Source: a virus
Reading direction: 5' to 3' (one strand)
Virus record (IMG/VR): IMGVR_UViG_3300012363_000014
Span: 1 to 33,704 of that record
DNA: 33,704 nucleotides
The notes below the pieces were generated by a model that was not told the origin of the DNA, searched no databases, and was given only the letters and a program-made list of their open reading frames with translations. The position numbers and the translations under genes are program-made. Of this stretch, positions 1-32,921 are shown in pieces (position 1 is the first letter of the stretch; each line of letters opens with the position of its first letter).

Positions 1-218
1 ACTGGTGCGACAGCATCGCTTCCGGGTGTGCCGCGCTCCGGCGCTCCTGCGGTACCGTTGCTGTCCGACTTACGGCCTCTCCGATCGGTCCGTCGTCCAG
101 CCAACTCTTCTCCGCCATTGAGGCCCTCCTCCGCCTTGATCGCTGCTGTTGAGGTGCTCAGTATCGCACCTGGTTCGAATCCCGGGATCTTAAATCCCGG
201 CGGCAACCTAACCGTCAT
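1..218 (-). CDS. Truncated 3' end: unknown protein in head operon
   Basis: An open frame starts with ATG at 218 and runs off the left edge without a stop, giving 72 visible residues. The ATG overlaps the stop of the metallopeptidase-like gene by four bases (ATGA), and a GGGG purine run lies about 6 nt upstream, so this looks like the next gene of the leftward head operon. The visible protein begins MTVRLPPGFKIPGFEPGA and becomes polar, rich in G, E, R and T. No domain is recognisable. By position it could be a scaffold, protease or capsid-related protein, but that is inference only. Confidence 0.6.
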   Translation of the reverse strand, partial: MTVRLPPGFKIPGFEPGAILSTSTAAIKAEEGLNGGEELAGRRTDRRGRKSDSNGTAGAPERGTPGSDAVAP

Positions 219-3200
219 TTCGTTCCCCTTAGTTTCGTACCCGTACGCAATGCTTGTCGTCTCGAAGCTTGCGTCGCAGCTGACCGTGCAATTAGTCTCC
301 TAATTGCGGAATCGCGGTCATTAATCGCCTTGCGAACCGCCGCACGCACGCCACTTCGCTGGGCCCTAGCGATCTCTTTATCCCAACGCGCAACTAGATC
401 TCGATAGGCAACGGTGTTCGTGATATCGATCTTACGTTGCGGTTCGGGTGTCGGTTGCGGCTCCGGCGACTGCGGCTGGTTGTACGGATATTCATACCCG
501 GCATCCTTCGTCCCGCCGATATACTTACCGTATCCCTCAGCCGGACCGCGCGGATACTCCTTCATCGAGTACTCAGACCAAAGCTCGGCAAGTAGCTCCG
601 CTGGGTGCGATGCTCCGTACTCCGATACCTGCGATTTTATCGCTTCTTTAACGTCGCTACCCTCAAACCAACGATTCAGACCGCCGGCCGGAGAGACGCC
701 TCCGCCCGGTGTCGAGTACGAAAGATTCGGAGGTTGAACGCCGAGAAGCTCGCCGATCTTGTCCCAGAATGACTGATTTAGCGGGACGCTATCCTGTCCG
801 AGATGGTTCGCGATCTTGTGACCGACCTCGTGAGCAAATACCTGGTCGTGGAATTGGAATGTATGATCGGCCCCGGACCACCAGCCGCCGAGGTTAAGCT
901 TCGTTTGATATAGCTGCTCGGTCGTAAAGTTCCGCGGGTGGAATACAATCTTGTCGGTACCCTGTTCGGTGTAGGCAGCAACGGAGTCCTTATTTCCGAG
1001 CGCTCCGAAATACGTACGAGCCGGATCGTCGATGACGAACTGGATTCCCTTCATGCTACCGGGAAGCAGCTTCTCCTGACGGTTAGCTGACTCGATAGCC
1101 AGCTGCGTCATCATCGCTTTCTCTTGCGGAGTAACGTTAGAAACGAAGTCCAGCGTCCAGCCCTGTGGCGACCTGAACAACGGATCGGACGTAAGTAGCT
1201 TCGTCATCACGTAGTGCTGACGGCCACTCTTGTCCTTAAAGACGGCTTCGCCCATATTCGTAAAGCGGTCAATTGTACCCGATGTATCCGAGCCCTTAAT
1301 GCGAACCCACTGACCAACGTTGAAGCCCTTCAGCGTCTGCGGACCCTTTTCGGTACCCTCACCGACAGGTCGTAGATTCTCGGCATACGCCGAACGATGC
1401 GTACCGGAAGTTTCGTCAAGGAACGTTACGAACTGACGCGGTCCGGTAACATTATCGACACGTACGACGGTTCCAATATCACCGCGCTTCGCGTCGAAAA
1501 CTTTATCGCCGACCTTGTAATTCTGTACCCGAACCCGCGAACCCTTCAACTGCAAGTTCTCGGCATATGAAGTAGAGGAGAGTCCGTTAGTTATCTTGAA
1601 CTCTACGTACTGACGCGGTCCAGTTCCACGGACGCTAATGACCGTACCAGAGCTTCCGGTGAGCTTGTTAACGACCTCATCGCCGACCTTGAAATCCCGT
1701 ACGGGCGGCTTCGGAACTCGTCCCTCAATGTCGCCGCCTTCGCCCTGCTTGAACTCCTTGCGACTCTGGCGTACGGCCCGCTCAGCTTCGAGACGCTTCG
1801 GGTGTCCCGGCGGATAAAGCTTACGAGCCTCGGTACGCTTCTTTAGCAGCTCGCCGTGACCCTCTTTCGCGATGGTCGGCTGCTGGCCGTACCCAGCGGA
1901 ACGGAGGAACGCTTCGCCGGCCTGCTGCGTTTCCGGGCGTGGATTCTTTGCGAGTGAGTACTCCGCCCATAGCTCAGGAACGATCTCGGAGTTCTTCGAT
2001 CCGGCGTAATGACTTACCGCTGGACCGTTCGGTCGGAGCTTACCGAAGGTCTTAATCCCGGGATATGCTTCGCCAGCAGCATCGTACGCAGCTCCGCGCG
2101 GGTTCGACTTTTCGTCAAGTGCATGACCGATCTCGTGCGCAACTTCGTAATCTACACTATTCGCACCGGTCTTCGGGTGGTAGCCATTCGCCTCGGCCTG
2201 CGCGTGCCATGCTGCGGAATCCTCGGTGAAGATACGAGGGTCGAGCTCCAGCGTCTTAGAAGCAAACGTGTACTTGCCGTTCTCTCCCTGCTTCTCCGCA
2301 AGTCCCGGAGTTATCTTGATCTGCGCAACTCCGGCGAGATCCGGAAGGAGCCTTCGCTGCTTATCCAGCGCAGCATCAAGTCGCTTACGATCCGGCGGAC
2401 TGAGCTGACCGTAATCGATATTCGGTCCGGGAGTTGTGGATGGCGTTTGCGTCGGCGTAGCGGATGCTTCTTGGATCGCCTGAGCTACGGCACGACCTTC
2501 ACGCTTCTCGTAGTGGCCGCTGGCTTGCTGAGCGTTGCGGAAGTCCTGAGGCGTAAACGTATACGAGCCGAGATGGTCCATTCGAGTGACCATCTTGGAG
2601 GCGAAGTCCGGATACGAGTAGACGTTTACGGTCCGGTTCTTCATGTCGACGACCTGGACGACCATCAGTGCGGCCTTGCCGGTACCGGCGATGGCACGGT
2701 ACTTACGGTCGATCTCCTCTTTCTTGATCGCCGTCTTCTGGCTCTTAGCGTTGACGTTCAGCGTCTTTAGCTCGCCACCGTAGAGATCATCGAGGTCGAA
2801 GTCCAGCGGGGTGTTCCGGGGACCGCCTTCGGCATGCGAGACAATCTGGTACGGTCCGCCGAACTTATTCACGATAAGGTGCGAACCCTTGTCCGCGAAC
2901 AACGACTCAAACGTATCACCGATCTCGCTTTTTCCCATCGCGTGACCGGTCTCAGGGTGAACGAAGTCCGACGGCGTCGTTACCTGGCGCAACCGCTTAT
3001 CGGTCGGCTCTACCGCGAAGCTAGCGTTGTGAACTACCTTACGAGGAAGCTCACGGGCCTCCTGCTGGGACAGCAACGCCGCCTGAGCTTCCACGCCAAG
3101 TCCGCCCTGCGTGAAATGCACTCGACCTTCGAGCAGGTCCTGAGCTGCCTCCTGTGCATCCGCAATGATGTCGGCGGCATCCTCCGCCTGGTCGCCACTG

Positions 3201-3301
3201 GCAATACCCTTCGTCGAAAAACGCCCGTGGAACCCGCGCGGGTGCAATGCCTCCGTATAGTCAGCACCAGCGTCGGGGTTAACGAGATCGACAAGGGTCA
3301 C
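215..3301 (-). CDS. Large virion-associated protein with two HExxH metallopeptidase-like domains and KOW/SH3-like repeats
   Basis: This 1028-residue protein starts at GTG 3301, overlapping the upstream stop as GTGA. Near residues 20-32 is a HPRGFHGRFSTKG stretch, like the RGRF segment found in many actinophage head proteins. Residues about 300-470 hold HEIGH (389-393) followed by ELWAEYS (443-449). Residues about 720-930 hold HEVGH (824-828) followed by AELWSEYS (905-912). The two regions look like copies of one zinc peptidase fold, with the late Glu as a possible third ligand. Between them, about 536-703, lie three repeats starting FKVGDEV, YKVGDKV and FNVGQWV that resemble KOW/SH3-like modules. 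The C-terminus is basic. Its place after the Mu F-like gene suggests a protein packaged in or on the virion, perhaps a maturation or injected protease. The function is not proven. Confidence 0.7.
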   Translation of the reverse strand: MTLVDLVNPDAGADYTEALHPRGFHGRFSTKGIASGDQAEDAADIIADAQEAAQDLLEGRVHFTQGGLGVEAQAALLSQQEARELPRKVVHNASFAVEPTDKRLRQVTTPSDFVHPETGHAMGKSEIGDTFESLFADKGSHLIVNKFGGPYQIVSHAEGGPRNTPLDFDLDDLYGGELKTLNVNAKSQKTAIKKEEIDRKYRAIAGTGKAALMVVQVVDMKNRTVNVYSYPDFASKMVTRMDHLGSYTFTPQDFRNAQQASGHYEKREGRAVAQAIQEASATPTQTPSTTPGPNIDYGQLSPPDRKRLDAALDKQRRLLPDLAGVAQIKITPGLAEKQGENGKYTFASKTLELDPRIFTEDSAAWHAQAEANGYHPKTGANSVDYEVAHEIGHALDEKSNPRGAAYDAAGEAYPGIKTFGKLRPNGPAVSHYAGSKNSEIVPELWAEYSLAKNPRPETQQAGEAFLRSAGYGQQPTIAKEGHGELLKKRTEARKLYPPGHPKRLEAERAVRQSRKEFKQGEGGDIEGRVPKPPVRDFKVGDEVVNKLTGSSGTVISVRGTGPRQYVEFKITNGLSSTSYAENLQLKGSRVRVQNYKVGDKVFDAKRGDIGTVVRVDNVTGPRQFVTFLDETSGTHRSAYAENLRPVGEGTEKGPQTLKGFNVGQWVRIKGSDTSGTIDRFTNMGEAVFKDKSGRQHYVMTKLLTSDPLFRSPQGWTLDFVSNVTPQEKAMMTQLAIESANRQEKLLPGSMKGIQFVIDDPARTYFGALGNKDSVAAYTEQGTDKIVFHPRNFTTEQLYQTKLNLGGWWSGADHTFQFHDQVFAHEVGHKIANHLGQDSVPLNQSFWDKIGELLGVQPPNLSYSTPGGGVSPAGGLNRWFEGSDVKEAIKSQVSEYGASHPAELLAELWSEYSMKEYPRGPAEGYGKYIGGTKDAGYEYPYNQPQSPEPQPTPEPQRKIDITNTVAYRDLVARWDKEIARAQRSGVRAAVRKAINDRDSAIRRLIARSAATQASRRQALRTGTKLRGTK

Positions 3302-4122
3302 TCGGCGGCCCCAGCGGGGATCAGATACGGAACGCCATTGCGCAATTCAATCGTCATATCCCCGGGCTCCTCGGCTCCAGCTTCAGCTGGCTTCTCTTGT
3401 AGCTCGCCTTCCTTCCACTGGAAGCGCTTGTCAAAGCTGAACTTGATCGGCGGTTCGGGCTTGGCTAGCTCGATAGCGTTGCGGTGCGGCGGTCCGGCCT
3501 TGCACCGGCAGTTGACGTGAACGACACCGGGCCAGCCGATCCTTGGCGGCTTCGATGCGGAGAAGTTCTTTCCGTTAGCATCGCGACATTCCTGCGTTGT
3601 CTTACCGTCAAGCTTCGCATACCAGCCAAGTGTCGGTCCGTACTTCTCGGCCAGACGATCGATCTCGTTCGCCGCACGCATCCGCAAACCGTCGGCCTCG
3701 ACGTGCTGGTTAAAGTAACGCAATTCCGTCCTAGCTGCCGCTTGCATCCCGGCTATTCCGCCGGCATTATACGCTTGCAGCAAACGGTTAAAGCACAGGA
3801 TCAAGTAGGCGGCTCGACGCATCTCATTCAACTTCGTAACGTACTGCTGAGCGGTACCACCTTCAACCGGTTCCGGCGGCATACTCTCGAGTATTCGCAG
3901 CGCAGCTGCTAGCGCCGCTTTGTCGCGTTGCGCAAACTTACGGCTCACGAACAGGTAGGTCAACGGAATAAACGCAAGCAATGGCGACGGTGCGGCGGCC
4001 AGAATCGCAGCGATCGCAGCAACGAGCTGTGACGTAACTTGAAGCAGCGCACCAGTTGGCGGCGGAGCCGTAGGAGGTAGCCGTCGCTTCCGCTTCTTCT
4101 TAGCTTGAGGCGGGTTAGTCAC
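3298..4122 (-). CDS. Mu F-like minor head protein (head morphogenesis)
   Basis: This 274-residue protein carries the hallmark C-terminal pattern of Mu gpF-like head morphogenesis proteins. LDGKTTQECRDANGK comes first, then a proline-rich stretch and VVHVNCRCKAGP, which is the D-x-x-T...C...NG...H-x-x-CRC signature. In this family the protein sits at the portal and helps assemble the capsid. The N-terminus is Lys/Arg-rich and followed by a hydrophobic stretch (about residues 25-60). The start is GTG 4122, with an AAGGAGG ribosome binding site that is part of a duplicated junction sequence. The gene probably once followed the portal gene directly, before the glycoside hydrolase gene came between them. 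Confidence 0.85.
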   Translation of the reverse strand: MTNPPQAKKKRKRRLPPTAPPPTGALLQVTSQLVAAIAAILAAAPSPLLAFIPLTYLFVSRKFAQRDKAALAAALRILESMPPEPVEGGTAQQYVTKLNEMRRAAYLILCFNRLLQAYNAGGIAGMQAAARTELRYFNQHVEADGLRMRAANEIDRLAEKYGPTLGWYAKLDGKTTQECRDANGKNFSASKPPRIGWPGVVHVNCRCKAGPPHRNAIELAKPEPPIKFSFDKRFQWKEGELQEKPAEAGAEEPGDMTIELRNGVPYLIPAGAAE

Positions 4123-4137
4123 TGGTTACCTCCTTGC
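4119..4137 (-). repeat. Direct repeat copy 1: junction and RBS duplicated around the GH16 gene
   Basis: On the minus strand this reads GCAAGGAGGTAACCAGTGA, identical over 19 nt to 4944-4962. Taking in 4115-4118 and 4940-4943, 22 of 23 positions match. It contains the ribosome binding site and GTG start of the Mu F-like gene. Confidence 0.85.
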
Positions 4138-4152
4138 GCTCGGATCTAAGCG

Positions 4153-4947
4153 TCACCCTGAAGTGACGGTGAGAACTCCGACCCCCATTGCCGCGTTCGG
4201 AACGATCGGGCCGCCCACTGTATTGCTCGCCCCGTAGTCGTTGATGACGTACATCGGGTCGGTAACAATCGGTACCCCGATGGACTTGCACGGCGACGAG
4301 CACGACTGCTTGACCAGGCCGACCTGGCTGTCGTTGAAGCTGAAGGTGATCGATGTAGCCGTCCAGTGGACGCTGTAGGTATTCCAGGCATTGCAGACAA
4401 ACGCGGTAATCTTACCGCCCACCTGCGCACTCTGCCCGGAGGCATTCAGGTAATGGTAGTGCCAGTAGGCAGCTCCGGCTCCAGCGATGCCCCCGCTGAG
4501 CCCTTCCACGAGGTCAATCTCGCCATGCGCGGGCCAGGAGCCGACCGTTCCGTCCATCCAGAACGCTGGCCAGTTCTCGATCTGGCCGGATGCGTTGCAC
4601 GGGAGCAAGACGTTCTCGTAGACCGTGACGGGCGGCGTCCAGGTCTCGTTCCCCTGGGTATTCATTGCCCCGGAAAGCGTGGCACCGGAGTTCATGGCTA
4701 GGAAGACGCGGACAACCTCGACATCGCCTATTAGGACGCCGGCGAAGGATACCTGCGCCGGGTCGAAGCTGACCGAATACTGGTTCGGGTGCTGAACAGT
4801 GTTGCAGCCGTTCTGCTCCTGGTAGGTCGGACACCAGACCACTCCGCCGTACGTGAACGGAGCTGGAACTGATGCGTGCGCCGCTGGAATGGCGGCCCCA
4901 GCCAGCGCGATCGCTAGTGCAATAGCTAGCACTATCTTCTTAATCAC
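4153..4947 (-). CDS. Secreted GH16-type glycoside hydrolase (glucanase-like)
   Basis: This 264-residue protein begins with a clear signal peptide: MIKK, a long Ala/Leu/Ile core, then a predicted cleavage near AHA-S at about residue 26. It carries the family 16 catalytic signature GEIDLVEG, in which E143, D145 and E148 fit the E-x-D-x-x-E pattern (nucleophile first Glu, acid/base last). Typical GH16 context surrounds it: NWPAFWMDG before, and YSVHWTATSITFSFND after. Family members cut beta-glucans, agars, carrageenans or related polysaccharides; the substrate cannot be read here. It starts at GTG 4947 (GTGA overlap with the portal stop, AAGGAGG site). A secreted enzyme between portal and Mu F-like genes is out of place, and a 23-bp direct repeat brackets it, so it looks like an inserted accessory gene (moron). 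Confidence 0.85.
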   Translation of the reverse strand: MIKKIVLAIALAIALAGAAIPAAHASVPAPFTYGGVVWCPTYQEQNGCNTVQHPNQYSVSFDPAQVSFAGVLIGDVEVVRVFLAMNSGATLSGAMNTQGNETWTPPVTVYENVLLPCNASGQIENWPAFWMDGTVGSWPAHGEIDLVEGLSGGIAGAGAAYWHYHYLNASGQSAQVGGKITAFVCNAWNTYSVHWTATSITFSFNDSQVGLVKQSCSSPCKSIGVPIVTDPMYVINDYGASNTVGGPIVPNAAMGVGVLTVTSG

Positions 4948-4962
4948 TGGTTACCTCCTTGC
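4944..4962 (-). repeat. Direct repeat copy 2: end of portal gene and RBS
   Basis: This is the other copy of the 19-nt repeat. Here it encodes the last residues of the portal protein (QGGNQ, stop) and also serves as the ribosome binding site and GTG start of the GH16 gene. Confidence 0.85.
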
Positions 4963-6500
4963 TGTGCTTGCAGCTGCTTTCCAGCGAGCCCGGAAGCAGC
5001 TTGCGTTGCTCCGGCGATCTTCGCTGCACCTTGTGCCGCTGGCTGAGCTCCTTGCCGAGATAGCTCGGCGGCCAGCGCGGCACGCATCTTCGCTCCCTTC
5101 GCGATAACGTCCTGAACTTGTGCCGTTGGCAAGTCGAGAACCTGTCCCGTCTTAACCGCAAGTAGATCAACGTACTCGTCGGCGACTTTTAGCTGCGGTG
5201 CCACCGCCATCTGAGTGAACGCCGTGACAATCTGTTGCGTATCCCCCTGCGTCAGCGGCGAAGCATGAAGCTGCGGGACCCGGGCATCCGCACCCCGGTT
5301 CAGCACGATCAACGGTGCAATAACGTTTCTCGTATACGAGGCACACATTTCCCGGACAGTAGCCGTACGGGCCTGCAGGAAGAACTGCGACTGCGATTCC
5401 GAAAGGGCGTACGAGCCACGACCCAGCGCAGCTGCTGCGGGCAAGCGAAGGAATCCGGCGAGCACGGACTGGGTCTGGTACGACGCAAGAAAGTCGATTG
5501 CGTCCTTGTACTCCGCACCGCCACTGACTCCGGACGAAATGACGTCGAATAGCTTCTGTCCCGCAGGCGGACGAATGAAGCCACCGACGCCGGAACCCTT
5601 CATCTGGGCGATCGTTGACGCAATTGCGTCGGCCGATGGCTGGTCCGGACCGTATGCCGCGATCCGAGGCGTTGCCATCAGCTCGAGGAACTGGAACCAG
5701 AGAAAGAGTATCTTGAGCTTCTGCTTATACGCCCAGTAAACGACATCCATGTCGCTGGCACCGATCAGCGGATTCCGATACTGACCGTGAATGTACACGA
5801 ACGAGCGCATCGCGGGAATGTCCAGGTACCCGGTGAAGTTCGATCCGCCCGGTGCGGCGTTCTGCTTCTGCGGTGATGTACCGAACCACCAAGCCCGTTG
5901 ACGGAAGCCGTCAAAGTCGGCCGTCCGTTCGTTCCGCTTTACGTCACACGTTGACGCTGGTCGCCAGGCAAGCTTCGTAAGCTTAACCTTGTTCGGTCCG
6001 CCCTCCAGGTCCCACTTCTTCTCGAAGAAGGTCTTGCGGTAGATACACGCCTGTGCCATCAACGCAATGACCTGGTCGAACCCGGGATCGGTTCCGTTGG
6101 CACCCGGCGGACTCATCAGCTGCTCGTTAGCGAGTTCCGCCTCCCCCGTGTCACCCTTCACACCGTCAATCGTATACGTGGTGCTAACCAGCGGGAGGAT
6201 TAGCGCCTCGGAACACGACTGAGCGTCACCGTCACGGCGCAACATCTCGTCAATGTCCCGGGCACGCCACTCGCCAATCTCGAAGACATCGCCGCCGGTG
6301 AACGCCGCGAAGAGACGAGTGTAGAAGTCGAACTGCGTACCAATCTCAGTACCGAGGAGCTGACGCTTCTGCTTCGGCGTAAGCTGCGGAAGCTTCAGCC
6401 CACTAATGTCGCCCTTCTTGGCCGCCGCCTCCGTAGAGACGTTTCCGCCGGCCGCAGCGTAACCGTTAGAAGAGGCTTTAGGAGGCACTAGGAAATCCAA
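4944..6500 (-). CDS. Portal protein, Mu gp29-like (DUF935 type)
   Basis: About 518 residues, the usual size for a phage portal, the dodecameric ring at the head vertex through which DNA is packaged. The best evidence is the segment with GSYALSESQSQFF followed by a helix and an NVIAPLIVLNRG-like stretch. This matches the conserved C-terminal part of DUF935/gp29 portals. Position between the large terminase and the Mu F-like gene also fits. The C-terminal tail is Ala/Gln-rich and low in complexity. The start is uncertain: TTG 6500 overlaps the terminase by 13 nt, while GTG 6488 would give a TAGTG overlap. Neither has a strong ribosome binding site, so translation is probably coupled. Confidence 0.85.
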   Translation of the reverse strand: MDFLVPPKASSNGYAAAGGNVSTEAAAKKGDISGLKLPQLTPKQKRQLLGTEIGTQFDFYTRLFAAFTGGDVFEIGEWRARDIDEMLRRDGDAQSCSEALILPLVSTTYTIDGVKGDTGEAELANEQLMSPPGANGTDPGFDQVIALMAQACIYRKTFFEKKWDLEGGPNKVKLTKLAWRPASTCDVKRNERTADFDGFRQRAWWFGTSPQKQNAAPGGSNFTGYLDIPAMRSFVYIHGQYRNPLIGASDMDVVYWAYKQKLKILFLWFQFLELMATPRIAAYGPDQPSADAIASTIAQMKGSGVGGFIRPPAGQKLFDVISSGVSGGAEYKDAIDFLASYQTQSVLAGFLRLPAAAALGRGSYALSESQSQFFLQARTATVREMCASYTRNVIAPLIVLNRGADARVPQLHASPLTQGDTQQIVTAFTQMAVAPQLKVADEYVDLLAVKTGQVLDLPTAQVQDVIAKGAKMRAALAAELSRQGAQPAAQGAAKIAGATQAASGLAGKQLQAQQGGNQ

Positions 6501-8320
6501 TCGACGTCAACTGAGAATGGATCCTCTACGTTGAGCTCGTCGTAACCGAAGATGTGCGAATTCGGACGAACTCCGAGTTCGCCTTGCAGCTGGTGTGCGC
6601 GTTCCCGTCGCTGACGCTTCGTAAACGCCGGTGTGACTGGTGCAAGCTCCGGCGACTTATCGCTATCAACGTATGCCCATTCGTCGACCGAATCTTCCGT
6701 GATACCGTAGCCGTGAATTCGTGCCTTCGAGACTGACGATGAATCCGGCCAGAACGTCATAACAACGGCGTCGCCACAGTCCGGACTGCGCCTCAGCCGC
6801 TTACTGACATCGTCTTTCGGCTCAACCTGGATCACGGCACCGGTCTTGACGTTCCATGTCGGACACGTAAGATCGGCCTTAAGGTCCTCGTCCGGCGGAA
6901 TGCACAAGTTGTCCGGACCGTTTACGGGATCAAGCAACTCCCTCAGGTGCCAGTACGCCGCCGATCGCTTGTTCGCGAACGTAAATTCACCGGTTGCGTC
7001 ACGCATTCCGTCAGCGCTGGACGCACCAACGTACGGAATCACGGAGAGCTGAAGTCTCCTGATCCGGTTAACGATCGGAGCGCCCATTCCGGTACCGTCA
7101 ATGCAGGCGGACGACCCGGCATTAGCTCGCAACCGACCGACAATCCGTTCAGTAGTGGTCTCCGTGTCTTGCAGGGCACTGCGATTCAACGACATAACTA
7201 CGGGGCCGCGACGCAGCGGCATAACCGTTTCGTCCTTCCCGGTATCGGCAATGTCGCAACCGACAATTAGCCGACCATCCGGCTGCGGTCTCCCGGAGGC
7301 TTCCCACTCCTTCCAGCGACGCATTGCTCGTTCGACCCACGAGAGTGGAATCAGGCCTTCGCTCCCCTCCTCCGGAGGCCTTCCTCGAACCTTACTCCAC
7401 CACAATGCGGGCTCGCGCCAGCGCGGGTTACCGTCCTCATCAACGAAGCGCTCAACGTTCCAGCGCTTCATTCGCTCATAGACCCACTCCGGGTCCAGCA
7501 ATGCGGCACGCCATTCGGCTCGGACCAGCGGGGAAAACTCCTTGACGCTATTGTCAGCGAACGGTATTCCGTGGTCCCGCATGTACTGCATCAGCTCGGG
7601 GAATCGAGAGACGGCCGCACGAGTAAAGTTCGGCGTTAGCAGACCGTCAATCGTTACAACGTTCCAGCCACTACCCGGCTTGAGTACCTGCGCAAATTGG
7701 CTATCTGACGAGTCCGGGTTACCGATCGCCAGCACATGCACCTGACCGGATGCGGCTAGTGTATCCACGGCCAGCCAGAGTTCCGCCGGAACTCCGTCCG
7801 CCTCTTCGATGACGATAAGCATGAACTTTGCGTGAACACCCTGGAACGCTGCAACTTCCTTGGGCCTTCTACCGAAGGCCACCAGCTCGTCGCCAATGTG
7901 CCATTGCGGATAACCGCCTCGGGTGATTCGTCCACGCAAACCGGCGAGGGTATGTGCCTTGATCATCTCGCGCCATAGCACCGATTCGACCTGCGCGCTG
8001 GTCGGTGCCGTGCTGACGACGAATGCCGATCCAATCGTGTGCGAGTCGATAAAGTGATCGCACTTCATCCCGGCGAATCGTGACTTACCAGCGGAGTGGC
8101 ACGACGGGACGGCCGTGTAGCGATGCTGTACGATCGAATCGTTGATCATTCGCTGGGACGGGGTGAGCTGCGTTCCTAGCCGGTCCCGGCACCACTTCTC
8201 GAACGTATCCGTAGTGCGTGGCTGGAACATCGAGGCAGCTAGTGCCAGTGGATCCGTCTCTTGCGCGTTCGAGTAGCTCAGCACCATTCCTTTGACTTTC
8301 TCGCGAGCTACTCGTGCCAA
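6488..8320 (-). CDS. terL: Terminase large subunit (packaging ATPase and nuclease)
   Basis: The 610-residue product has the two-domain layout of large terminases. The ATPase part has a Walker A-like loop CHSAGKS (74-80), a Walker B-like strand ending IVIEEAD (169-175), and a GNPDSSDSQ coupling motif (200-208). The C-terminal RNase H-like nuclease has its expected acidic residues at D356 (GCDIADTGKDE), D408 (ACIDGTG) and D514/D517 (SPDCGDA). It powers DNA translocation into the prohead and cuts the concatemer. TTG 8320 is chosen because GGAG sits 6 nt upstream; ATG 8287 is the alternative. The small subunit lies upstream in the same orientation, separated only by an HNH gene on the other strand. 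Confidence 0.93.
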   Translation of the reverse strand: MARVAREKVKGMVLSYSNAQETDPLALAASMFQPRTTDTFEKWCRDRLGTQLTPSQRMINDSIVQHRYTAVPSCHSAGKSRFAGMKCDHFIDSHTIGSAFVVSTAPTSAQVESVLWREMIKAHTLAGLRGRITRGGYPQWHIGDELVAFGRRPKEVAAFQGVHAKFMLIVIEEADGVPAELWLAVDTLAASGQVHVLAIGNPDSSDSQFAQVLKPGSGWNVVTIDGLLTPNFTRAAVSRFPELMQYMRDHGIPFADNSVKEFSPLVRAEWRAALLDPEWVYERMKRWNVERFVDEDGNPRWREPALWWSKVRGRPPEEGSEGLIPLSWVERAMRRWKEWEASGRPQPDGRLIVGCDIADTGKDETVMPLRRGPVVMSLNRSALQDTETTTERIVGRLRANAGSSACIDGTGMGAPIVNRIRRLQLSVIPYVGASSADGMRDATGEFTFANKRSAAYWHLRELLDPVNGPDNLCIPPDEDLKADLTCPTWNVKTGAVIQVEPKDDVSKRLRRSPDCGDAVVMTFWPDSSSVSKARIHGYGITEDSVDEWAYVDSDKSPELAPVTPAFTKRQRRERAHQLQGELGVRPNSHIFGYDELNVEDPFSVDVDWIS

Positions 8321-10043: not shown

Positions 10044-11169
10044 CTCGTTCCAGCGGTGTCGCCGGGCGTGGGACATTACCTCCGCGAGTCGCCAGTCGCT
10101 TCACCGAATCGGTATGCCGGTAGCCGCGCTGAACATCGGGTCCGCCGTGCATTACGCACTGGCTTCGCACGCGCTTGGCTCAGACCCCGAAGCCAGTGCG
10201 CTGGTCTACTTCCAGCAATCCGTGGATCAGCTCCAGGTACAATACCGTGAAGTTATCGGGGCCGAGCTATCAACGCAGGAGTGGACCGCACTAGCCGAAG
10301 AGCGCGATATGGTCCTCGGCATGATCAAGGCGTACTTCGCGAGATATGGCTATACGCGGCCAACGAAGCCTTACCGAATAGTGGCGCCAGAGGTTACGTT
10401 TCGCATTCCGCTCGTTCCCGATTACGATATCTTCCTAGTGGGAACGATTGACCGGGTGCTAGTGGACGCCGACGGAAATCCGATTCCTGGCGAGATCAAG
10501 ACCTACAAGAGCAAGCCGAACAAGACAGATTGGCGGTTCAACCATCAGATCTACGGATACGCAGCGGCACTGCAGCTACTCACTAAGAAGCCCGTCCGTT
10601 ACGCTTTGTATGACGGGTTGCGAAAGAAGGCCCCGCTGCGTCCGAACGTACTCAAGGACGGGACGCTGTCTTCCGCGTGGATTGATACCACGCATGCGAT
10701 TTACCGTGCCGACCTGCTAGAGCTTTACGGCGGTGATATGTCCGTCCTTGCACATCCGGCCTACGCACCGCTGCTATCGCGATTGAAGGAACGCGACCTC
10801 TCACCGGACTCCGCATTCCATACTCGCTTCCGCATTCCGATTTCGCAGGTGGCGATTGAGCAGTGGTGGGATCAGGCACAGGCGATCGCAATGGAGATGG
10901 CACACGATCCCCGAATCTATCCGAACTTCCCGTGGGACGGTTGCCGGATGTGCCGAGTTCGCGACCTATGCCACGCAATTCAAGGCGGTGAGGATACCGA
11001 GTATCTACTCTCGCAGTTCGCCGTAGGACAAACGCATACCCGGCAAGCCAAGATCGTGGCAACTCCAGCGACAGTCCGCAGCGTGAAAGATCTAGCTGCC
11101 TATGCAGGTTCGCTGGACCCCGACCAGCCATTCGAAATTTCCGTAACCCCGGAGGCAGACCCGGCATGA
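9925..11169 (+). CDS. Cas4/RecB-like PD-(D/E)XK exonuclease with Fe-S cluster cysteines
   Basis: 414 residues. The nuclease motifs are GSAVHYAL (G72-H76 region), GTIDRV (D176), GEIKTY (E190 and K192, the ExK pair) and HQIYGYAAAL (Q208, Y210). One cysteine lies early (C45 in QRCRRAW) and three lie late (C340, C343, C349 in CRMCRVRDLC), which is the four-Cys arrangement that binds a 4Fe-4S cluster in Cas4 and AddB-type nucleases. Phage members process DNA ends in recombination or replication. Start ATG 9925 has only a weak AG-rich site. GTG 9955 follows GGGGA and would shorten the overlap with the upstream gene while keeping all motifs. The next gene overlaps the stop (ATGA). Confidence 0.85.
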   Translation: MKTLTKDGEIVLPPRWKQVPEARERPVRGRPFEVSVNELNSFQRCRRAWDITSASRQSLHRIGMPVAALNIGSAVHYALASHALGSDPEASALVYFQQSVDQLQVQYREVIGAELSTQEWTALAEERDMVLGMIKAYFARYGYTRPTKPYRIVAPEVTFRIPLVPDYDIFLVGTIDRVLVDADGNPIPGEIKTYKSKPNKTDWRFNHQIYGYAAALQLLTKKPVRYALYDGLRKKAPLRPNVLKDGTLSSAWIDTTHAIYRADLLELYGGDMSVLAHPAYAPLLSRLKERDLSPDSAFHTRFRIPISQVAIEQWWDQAQAIAMEMAHDPRIYPNFPWDGCRMCRVRDLCHAIQGGEDTEYLLSQFAVGQTHTRQAKIVATPATVRSVKDLAAYAGSLDPDQPFEISVTPEADPA

Positions 11170-11576
11170 TACGAACGTTCGATGAGTGGCTCGACACGCA
11201 GATTCCGCTGGCGGCGAACGCCGATTCCAGCGAGGCGATTGAGCAGATGCGCAACGCATGGAACGCAGCGATTACCAGCGGCGCTGACGAGTTCGCCGAA
11301 CGAAAGGAGGAGCTGCTGCTCAAGTACGATGCTCCGATACGCATATCAATCGGTGAGGCAGCTAAGCTCGTTCCGCCGACCATGGCGCTCAACCTCAACG
11401 AGAGCTTTGCGGCTCGGTATCCGTCACGTGAGGCCGCCGAGGAATGGCAGCAGCTTAACCTCGATCACTACGGTCACGAGGCCGTTGGAATTGTCGAGGA
11501 TCCGGTGCACGGCGGCTTCGTTGGCGTTATGTCGTACCGGAAGATGCTAGCGAGGCTGAGGAGTCAACGTACATGA
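11166..11576 (+). CDS. Hypothetical protein, 136 aa
   Basis: It starts at ATG 11166, overlapping the nuclease stop by four bases, and ends overlapping the next gene, so it is translationally coupled. The sequence is acidic and helical at the N-terminus (SSEAIEQMRNAWNAAITS) with a mixed C-terminal part. No family is recognised. Confidence 0.7.
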   Translation: MIRTFDEWLDTQIPLAANADSSEAIEQMRNAWNAAITSGADEFAERKEELLLKYDAPIRISIGEAAKLVPPTMALNLNESFAARYPSREAAEEWQQLNLDHYGHEAVGIVEDPVHGGFVGVMSYRKMLARLRSQRT

Positions 11577-11818
11577 GTTCGTGGGAGCAGCGAATGTCTC
11601 AGCGTGCCGCTGAACGCGAGCACCGACGCTTTCAAGCCGCCCGGCGCAAGCTAATGCAGTCAAAGCTGAAGCCGCATGTGGTTGCGTTCCTGCGGGAAGG
11701 TCACGTGCTGATCATTGAGGACGGTCCAGCGATCATGTCCGATTACCGTACCGGTCGGCTTATCTTGATGTGGCTCACTGACGTTCCGGAATGCGACTGT
11801 CACGGCGCCGGATTCTAA
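11573..11818 (+). CDS. Hypothetical protein, 81 aa
   Basis: It starts at ATG 11573, overlapping the upstream stop by four bases. The N-terminal half is highly charged and helical (RAAEREHRRFQAARRKL). The C-terminal half looks like a small beta unit ending CDCHGAGF. It is the last gene before the promoter at 11831. No function is recognised. Confidence 0.65.
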   Translation: MSSWEQRMSQRAAEREHRRFQAARRKLMQSKLKPHVVAFLREGHVLIIEDGPAIMSDYRTGRLILMWLTDVPECDCHGAGF

Positions 11819-11830
11819 CCGCCCGTGACA

Positions 11831-11859
11831 TTGACAGTGCTTTAAAGTGCGGCTATACT
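11831..11859 (+). promoter_or_regulatory. Promoter (TTGACA-17-TATACT)
   Basis: Both hexamers are perfect sigma-70-type consensus: TTGACA 11831-11836, TATACT 11854-11859, spacer 17 nt. It reads into a 47-residue gene with a GGAGGTGGG ribosome binding site. Confidence 0.85.
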
Positions 11860-11878
11860 ATAGCTGGAGGTGGGAACC

Positions 11879-12022
11879 ATGGCAACGGTGACAGTTCAGT
11901 GCGAGATCGTGATTGACGTAGGCGATCGGGACCCGGAGTTCGAGAAGACCGTGGAGTTCGCCGAGTCCGAGGCTGAACTCGTGCTTCAGGAGGCCGAGAT
12001 CAAAAGCTACCTGATCAAGTAA
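11879..12022 (+). CDS. Small acidic hypothetical protein, 47 aa
   Basis: ATG 11879 follows GGAGGTGGG and lies 20 nt after a perfect promoter. The product is MATVTVQCEIVIDVGDRD, then an acidic Glu-rich helix ending SYLIK. Short beta-forming N-terminus and acidic helix could suit a small regulator or inhibitor, but nothing is recognised. Strong promoter, strong ribosome binding site and clean stop support a real gene. Confidence 0.7.
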   Translation: MATVTVQCEIVIDVGDRDPEFEKTVEFAESEAELVLQEAEIKSYLIK

Positions 12023-12043
12023 CCAGCGGAGGTGCGGGAAACG

Positions 12044-12463
12044 ATGGCGAGACTAGTACTACTTAGCTTCAAGAGCAACGAAGAGGCCGAGATACTTGCG
12101 CGGATCGTGTGCGATCCGGAGGCGTACGTAGACGTTCCTGACCTACTCGTGAATGCTGAGGTCGAGTGGGTGATCGGTAGGCCGGTGAATGCGTGCGAGT
12201 GCAGTCAGACCCGCAAGGCACCGGGACGCCGGGGGAAGAAGGTAACCAGCGGGTGGACGAAAGGTCAGAAGTACGGCTGGTGGATTCATCCCGTGAAGGG
12301 TTGCGGCCGGGTCTCACGGCTAGTGCTGGAACGGTTTGTTGCTAACCTTACCGGCGGTGCGTATGACCTGCTGCCCGAGATTCTTGACGAGCCCGAACGC
12401 GTTCCGAATGATCCGCGGAAGTTCCTTCCCGAGGGAACGCTCGAACATCAGCTGGCCCGATGA
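12044..12463 (+). CDS. Hypothetical protein, 139 aa
   Basis: ATG 12044 is preferred to GTG 12032 because GGAGG lies about 13 nt before the ATG and inside the longer version. The protein has CECSQTRKAPGRRGKK near the middle, then WWIHPVKGCGRVSRLVLERF. The cysteines may bind a metal. It overlaps the next gene as ATGA. No family is recognised. Confidence 0.7.
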   Translation: MARLVLLSFKSNEEAEILARIVCDPEAYVDVPDLLVNAEVEWVIGRPVNACECSQTRKAPGRRGKKVTSGWTKGQKYGWWIHPVKGCGRVSRLVLERFVANLTGGAYDLLPEILDEPERVPNDPRKFLPEGTLEHQLAR

Positions 12464-31982: not shown

Positions 31983-32921
31983 ATGAAGTCACGATTTACG
32001 AAGCTCGCAATTGCGCTCGTTGCAGTTGCCGGTCTTATCGGAGCTGCAGGAACTTCGCTTGCAGCTTCAAGCGTTACTACCACGCCGAAGATCTACTACG
32101 GCTGCGTCAAGACCAGCGGTACGCCAACCCGGGTACTGTGGAACGTTCACACCGTTCCGGTCACCTGCCCGCTCGGCTCGTTCGGCATCCACTGGAACCA
32201 GACCGGCCCGCAGGGACCGCAAGGCATCCAGGGCCTGACCGGAGCGACTGGCCCAGCAGGTCCAACGGGTTCGACCGGACCCAAGGGTGACGCCGGCGCC
32301 ACGGGACCGCAGGGACCACAAGGCGACACCGGAGCGACTGGCCCAACCGGACCACAGGGTCCACCAGGACCGTCCGACCTGAGCGTTATGGCAACGACTT
32401 CGGTCACCAACCGTGACGACAGTGGCGGCAACGGCTTCTGGGCCAAGGACGCATTCGTTCGCACGATCTCGATTACCCGGCACGAGGCATCCGACGTCTC
32501 GCACTGCGGCGGCGGAGTTCCGACCTGCTGGTTCTACAGTGGCACGTTCACTGACAGTGGCACGTTCGAGACCATCACGAACGCTTTCACGCCCAATCAA
32601 GGTCTAGACACGGGAATGCACATTTCCGGAACCGTGGACGGCAACTTCTCCGGCGGTAGTCACATCGAGTTCTACGCCTCCTCAAACGCACCGGACGCCG
32701 GACTGGTCCCGTCAACGGTGAGCGGTGATTCACCGTCAACCGGCACCTGGTACGAGAAGTTCTTCCCCGGCGGCACGTCGTTCTCTGGTCCGGCCAACCT
32801 GATTGACTGGTCGTGGACCTACAACGCACCGAATACCTGCGAGACCTGGGTCGATGCGTTTAACAACAGCGACGGACAGTCGCTCTCTGCTGGTGACATT
32901 ACCGGCGTTAACCACTGCTGA
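31983..32921 (+). CDS. Secreted collagen-like protein
   Basis: 312 residues with a signal peptide (MKSRF, hydrophobic core, cleavage near residue 28). A cysteine-containing region follows, then 19 uninterrupted G-x-y triplets (residues 75-131; repeats such as [18 protein letters not shown]). The C-terminal 180-residue domain is Ser/Thr/Gly/Asp-rich with paired Cys (CGGGVPTC). Collagen-like repeats trimerise into rods; in phages they occur in tail or head fibres, but an export signal points instead to secretion from the infected or lysogenic cell. AGAAAGG precedes ATG 31983. Confidence 0.75.

Follow-up and report, generated by a model that had tools for sequence, protein, structure and literature searches.

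Gene organization at the portal-MuF junction

We analyzed the complete viral record IMGVR_UViG_3300012363_000014 (33,704 nt, hereafter the window). In its head operon, a gene for a glycoside hydrolase family 16 (GH16) protein lies between the genes for the portal protein and a MuF-like minor head protein (Table 1). The portal stop codon and the GH16 start codon overlap as GTGA, and the same overlap, at 3298-3301, joins MuF to the gene for a 1028-aa protein downstream. No such overlap exists between GH16 and MuF: 30 nt separate the end of the GH16 stop at 4153 from the MuF start at 4122. On the coding strand, the portal end and the start of the next gene are contained in GCAAGGAGGTAACCAGTGATTAA, and the MuF start is contained in GCAAGGAGGTAACCAGTGACTAA. 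The PF04233 match of the MuF-like protein (E 9.9e-06, 26.7 against the Pfam cut-off of 29.6) falls under the cut-off, as does its TIGR01641 match. No integrase match was obtained among the window genes that were scanned with profiles.

Several features were observed in the surrounding genes. The 1028-aa protein carries two HExxH motifs (AHEIGHALDE and AHEVGHKIANH) and looks like a doubled metallopeptidase. In the Streptomyces phage Intolerant, an annotated ADP-ribosyltransferase occupies its place, and both proteins may be MuF-linked effectors. Different head-module proteins of related phages share a motif of some 35 residues, H..LL..R..AR...P.GHP.RL.AERAVR.SRK (window 215-3301; L003:8998-9795 and 10801-12024; more loosely, L007:9118-10239). 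A collagen-like protein with a probable signal peptide is encoded at 31983-32921 on the plus strand, and its matches to tail-fibre families run through the collagen stretch.

Table 1. Genes and repeat copies around the portal-MuF junction of the window
Feature	Positions	Strand	Evidence
Terminase large subunit, flanking gene	6488..8320	-	phrog_2, E 2.6e-25
Portal protein (Mu type), 518 aa	4944..6500	-	PF06074, E 2.5e-29; phrog_113
Upstream repeat copy: portal C-terminal codons (GGNQ stop), ribosome site, GTGATTAA GH16 start	4940..4962	-	
GH16-family protein, 264 aa, probable signal peptide, E143-I-D145-L-V-E148	4153..4947	-	Pfam PF00722, PDB sequence matches, alignment, model
Downstream repeat copy: ribosome site and GTGACTAA MuF start	4115..4137	-	
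MuF-like minor head protein, 274 aa	3298..4122	-	phrog_595, phrog_115, 39-45% identity to the MuF of three relatives
1028-aa protein downstream of MuF, flanking gene	215..3301	-	Weak metallopeptidase Pfam matches below cut-off

A direct repeat at both gene starts

The repeat finder confirmed what an earlier note on this DNA had claimed, namely a 23-bp sequence that occurs at the portal end and again before MuF (4940-4962 and 4115-4137). The two copies are identical at 22 of 23 positions, 19 of them in a row, and read GCAAGGAGGTAACCAGTGA[C/T]TAA on the coding strand; the single mismatch falls in codon 2 of GH16 and MuF. The 825-bp unit given in that note stands as the start-to-start spacing of the copies, but not as the length between them, since it is made up of one copy and the 802 bp in between. 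The MuF ribosome site in the downstream copy falls inside the 30-nt spacer that follows GH16. As the repeat straddles both gene ends, a single ancestral copy could have encoded the portal C-terminus and at once provided MuF with its ribosome site and start.

The 33.7-kb record contains the 17-base core of the repeat, AAGGAGGTAACCAGTGA, exactly twice, and four matches with at most three mismatches were found against 0.06 expected. When 36 gene starts chosen by hand from the window were compared from -15 to +8 (630 pairs; mean 8.0 identities, sd 2.3), the GH16/MuF pair reached 22/23 with a 19-nt run, and the next best pair reached 16/23. Outside the window, the 19-mer was found in three further IMG/VR contigs (L151-L153), apparently one lineage of unrelated phages, where the identical GCAAGGAGGTAACCAGTGA sits at an overlapping gene start. 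There, the match is two bases longer and has the GH16-side form, and the encoded proteins show no convincing match to the window locus. The repeat sequence can therefore arise independently, but very rarely. The predicted RNA fold at the MuF start was no better than that of shuffled sequences (z -0.80).

Start-associated repeat families exist in some phages. Such a family was considered here, prompted by AGGTAACC, which occurs seven times against 0.68 expected from dinucleotide shuffles. The candidate was rejected, since the excess of GGTAACC is not clear under a fifth-order model (18 seen, 13.6 expected) and the occurrences at 12240, 28990 and 31842 do not fall at accepted gene starts.

The portal-MuF junction in related phages

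Relatives were gathered with portal and terminase queries, and the distance from the portal stop to the in-frame MuF start was computed for 17 loci. In the 15 loci where both genes were readable to an in-frame start, the portal gene extends 4-41 nt into MuF, and no further gene separates the two (L003, L004, L007, L022/L023/L024/L033, L025-L028, L029, L031, and the Streptomyces phages JackieB, L005, and Intolerant, L150). Merging at 99% identity or more reduces them to nine lineages or named phages, with JackieB and Intolerant each counted singly, uncompared; they are the two phages in which the junction was read among 11 matched Streptomyces phages. The other two loci have different arrangements. 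In L032, the MuF frame opens with a LysM domain (Pfam 26.3 against 20.9 bits) and offers no ATG, GTG or TTG ahead of the MuF match. In the Microcystis phage Mwe-JY05 (L149), MuF was unmatched by the query, and the record lists a DnaQ-like gene between the portal and the capsid maturation protease.

PF00722, the GH16 profile, matched none of 17 related records, many of them fragmentary, and was positive in 6 of 14 control genomes; these 17 records overlap with, but differ from, the 17 junction loci. No copy of the repeat was present at any of the relatives' junctions examined. A table for phage SPP1 places the portal gene at 2336-3847 and gene 7 from 3804, so that these two also overlap (PMC6316719), and muf genes are described, in a passage of PMC5576092, as sitting immediately downstream of portal genes. 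Taken across the relatives, SPP1 and these descriptions, direct overlap is most likely the old state and GH16 a gain in the lineage of the window. The empty-site comparison suggested in the earlier note thus came out as predicted; relatives without GH16, on whose existence that note had made its idea depend, were found, and the reading of a gene gained where portal and MuF overlap has good support.

The window MuF starts with V-T-N-P, and comparable starts are found in L004 (V-A-N-P), JackieB (V-T-N-P) and L022 (M-T-T-P), which argues that the downstream repeat copy is the old MuF start. The portals of the closest relatives are 52-58% identical at best, and a close relative with an empty site was not found; at this distance, the exact sequence before the insertion is out of sight. 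The insertion itself is known from a single metagenomic contig.

The GH16 protein and its kin

The 264-aa product is a GH16 protein with a laminarinase-like fold. Its PF00722 match (E 8.2e-07, 29.1 bits) exceeds the curated cut-off of 22, and its PDB sequence matches are laminarinases, the best being 4crq (E 3.2e-08). E143, D145 and E148 do not vary across an alignment of 28 sequences and form the ExDx(x)E pattern by which GH16 members are known, so that both the family and the intact motif suggested earlier hold; ExDxxE is described as the beta-bulge form of the motif in a section of PMC6827312. In the structure model (pLDDT 80.4, pTM 0.81, residues 6-18 below 50), the chain adopts a beta-jelly-roll fold, and GH16 enzymes lead the Foldseek matches (E 3.3e-14, TM 0.62/0.68). 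The model comes closest to the endoglucanases 7kr6, 5nbo and 4crq, with a TM of about 0.6, and the closest named viral model is a laminarinase-like siphovirus protein. The best sequence and fold matches are the laminarinases and mixed-linkage endoglucanases ZgLamC (4crq) and those of Bacteroides ovatus (5nbo/7kr6), which have the same ExDxxE catalytic strand. The window protein differs from them in that identity in the fold alignment is about 20% and the N-terminal strands have diverged. Given these fold neighbours, the substrate of the predicted enzyme is probably a beta-glucan of the laminarin or mixed-linkage type. By eye, residues 1-26 resemble a Sec signal peptide, with KK, a long hydrophobic stretch and A-H-A before S. 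Intact catalytic residues are no proof of activity, since Rv0315 is reported, in part of PMC4606783, to be an inactive GH16 protein with both glutamates.

Searches with single-sequence patterns in viral contigs, phages and genome contigs returned no close GH16 relatives. An alignment-based search gave distant matches throughout, among the best 80 of 239 genome loci and in 13 viral loci. A second alignment search gave two viral loci, L132/L133, which seem to hold a single gene. This gene (4689-5390 in both) encodes a small GH16 protein with a probable signal peptide, in large phage contigs of 129 and 185 kb. The best genomic match was G017, the genome holding a Frankiales MAG locus (E 2.3e-18, 39% over residues 90-244); its order and phylum (298 and 396 genomes) yielded two matches each at E <= 1e-10. 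A search of the class with a two-row profile matched 75 of 394 at 1e-15, was dominated by the second row and served only to find rows for the tree. A first tree of 51 rows (the window and 50 of the fetched loci) contained long-branch rows, above all L045, which is probably mis-trimmed. The final tree had 47 rows, the window and 46 loci, without L045, L043, L055 and L117. In it, the window protein falls in a six-row clade with four genomes from the class of the Frankiales locus and the phage contig L132 (support 97/92); the L132/L133 protein is possibly its sister (94/65). The placement is unsure because the terminal branch is long (2.17).

The GH16 gene has a GC content of 0.610 and a GC3 of 0.768, compared with 0.593 (sd 0.027) and 0.696 (sd 0.070) in the other genes of more than 100 codons. 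Its composition and codon use are phage-like, and its kin, all distant, are actinobacterial GH16 genes and a phage copy. Since GC and codon use fit the phage, a high-GC chromosome is unlikely as the source just before insertion, and an earlier stay in phages seems likelier.

A scan limited to sigma-70-type sites found none in 3000-6600. The only terminator-like match on the coding strand, at 4418-4403, lies inside GH16. With no such promoter-like site, GH16 should be read together with terminase, portal and MuF, that is, late.

Discussion

Overall, we propose that a phage-adapted, exported beta-glucanase entered the head operon through an insertion that generated the repeat, is read out late and probably aids the spread of progeny; we hold this account as a whole to be likely. 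In the ancestral junction, portal and MuF would have overlapped directly, with one copy of the sequence serving both genes. A single insertion event would then have brought in the GH16 coding sequence along with a duplicated junction. The upstream copy would have kept the last codons of the portal gene and become the ribosome site and start of GH16, and the downstream copy would have continued to serve MuF as ribosome site and start, leaving each neighbour with its own copy. A repeat that spans both the portal end and the MuF start is what an insertion with junction duplication predicts. GH16 would be transcribed on the late head-operon mRNA, and the predicted protein would leave the cell through the host Sec system and cut beta-glucan outside. 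Most likely, this would loosen polysaccharide outside the host cell or neighbouring cells and allow progeny to spread or adsorb better.

A short flanking target duplication, as left by transposons, is present in the form of the 23-bp repeat, but a transposase and terminal inverted repeats are not: apart from GH16, nothing in the insert gave a protein match, and its two ends are not paired by any inverted repeat. We therefore infer ectopic or single-crossover recombination, or template-switching repair, at a short sequence as the probable course. The donor was probably another phage, given the phage-like composition of the gene and the distance of its nearest kin.

The two gene starts might instead have converged under a shared need for a strong ribosome site, spacing and GTGA, with GH16 arriving in some other way and no duplication involved. 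The repeat parts AAGGAGGT and GTGA are functional, so their likeness could reflect selection; AGGTAACC also stands directly before two more gene starts (20280 and 20641), and the 19-mer recurs at a gene start of unrelated phages. Yet none of the 629 other start pairs exceeds 16/23, the match extends into the spacer and upstream bases of no known role, the GGTAACC excess is not clear, and just one apparent lineage among IMG/VR contigs shares the 19-mer. We consider convergence improbable. It is less probable still that GH16 was ancestral here and was lost from the relatives by recombination between the repeats. Such a deletion would yield their arrangement, but it would have to be assumed in all nine lineages or phages examined, none of whose junctions keeps a repeat copy, and the overlap of portal and gene 7 in the SPP1 table of PMC6316719 extends the direct junction to a distant phage. 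Hardly any weight falls on an assembly chimera, in which GH16 was wrongly joined into a phage contig. The arrangement is known from a single metagenomic record; nevertheless, no reading frame is broken on either side, a GTGA overlap is present, and the composition of GH16 fits the phage. Assembler word sizes usually exceed 19 bp, the length of the exact repeat.

Even with the insertion accepted, the GH16 protein may no longer be an enzyme and may act as a sugar-binding, decoy or virion-associated protein. Its diverged N-terminal part and long branch, its location among virion genes and the inactivity of Rv0315 (as given in part of PMC4606783) point in this direction. In contrast, E143, D145 and E148 are invariant in all 28 sequences, and the probable signal peptide suggests export rather than a place in the capsid. 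We regard a loss of enzymatic function as rather unlikely.

Returning to the inserted, putative glucanase, the earlier note had suggested that it could alter the niche of the host. From the sequence, such a role is at most weakly suggested. In the sigma-70 scan, the gene showed no promoter of its own and would thus be expressed late, and an unbroken ExDxxE is no warrant of activity. Produced only shortly before lysis, a glucanase could hardly feed the host, which argues against niche alteration. A role in loosening the extracellular glucan that surrounds mycelium, biofilm or debris, which would benefit the progeny, is most likely and fits late production better.

GH16 resembles the morons and insertions known from structural operons, as described for SPP1 in a section of PMC6316719, in that the gene is absent from relatives and lies between conserved structural genes. 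In the original sense, a moron also has its own promoter and terminator. Since no promoter-like site was found, GH16 falls outside this definition, which asks for a complete transcription unit, and fits the wider, later use of the term. The 23-bp junction duplication that flanks it is not described for the SPP1 insertions in the available excerpt of PMC6316719, and a strictly worded literature search on flanking duplications of morons returned no paper, while a looser one returned others, the SPP1 paper among them. GH16 beta-glucanases of soil viruses likewise come from environmental viruses and are read, in the sections available of PMC10127799 and PMC6460857, as auxiliary carbohydrate genes. 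The window gene differs from them in its head-operon site between portal and MuF and in having no close relative in the collections searched.

Other extra sequences are found at the same junction. The DnaQ-like gene of Mwe-JY05 (L149:4463-5041) is cargo unrelated to GH16. In L032 (IMGVR_UViG_3300025588_000001), a LysM domain (7460-7700) is joined ahead of MuF; it is again unrelated to GH16 and differs in being in frame with MuF rather than a separate gene. These cases suggest a wider idea, in which cargo would dock repeatedly at the portal-MuF overlap. The junction would be duplicated each time, the neighbours would stay intact, and the new gene would receive a ribosome site and a start; GH16, the LysM sequence of a relative and the DnaQ-like gene of the Microcystis phage would be its three outcomes. 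We think this generalization doubtful and quite unlikely.

Phage GH16 genes and gene insertions are already known; what is unusual here is a legible junction duplication that straddles two gene ends. The gene pair concerned is otherwise kept overlapping over great distances, and the edges of the gain are still readable. This hints at a way for a tightly packed essential operon to take up a new gene while both neighbours stay unharmed. Moreover, it adds a candidate secreted late glucanase, which points to the spread of progeny rather than to the feeding of the host.
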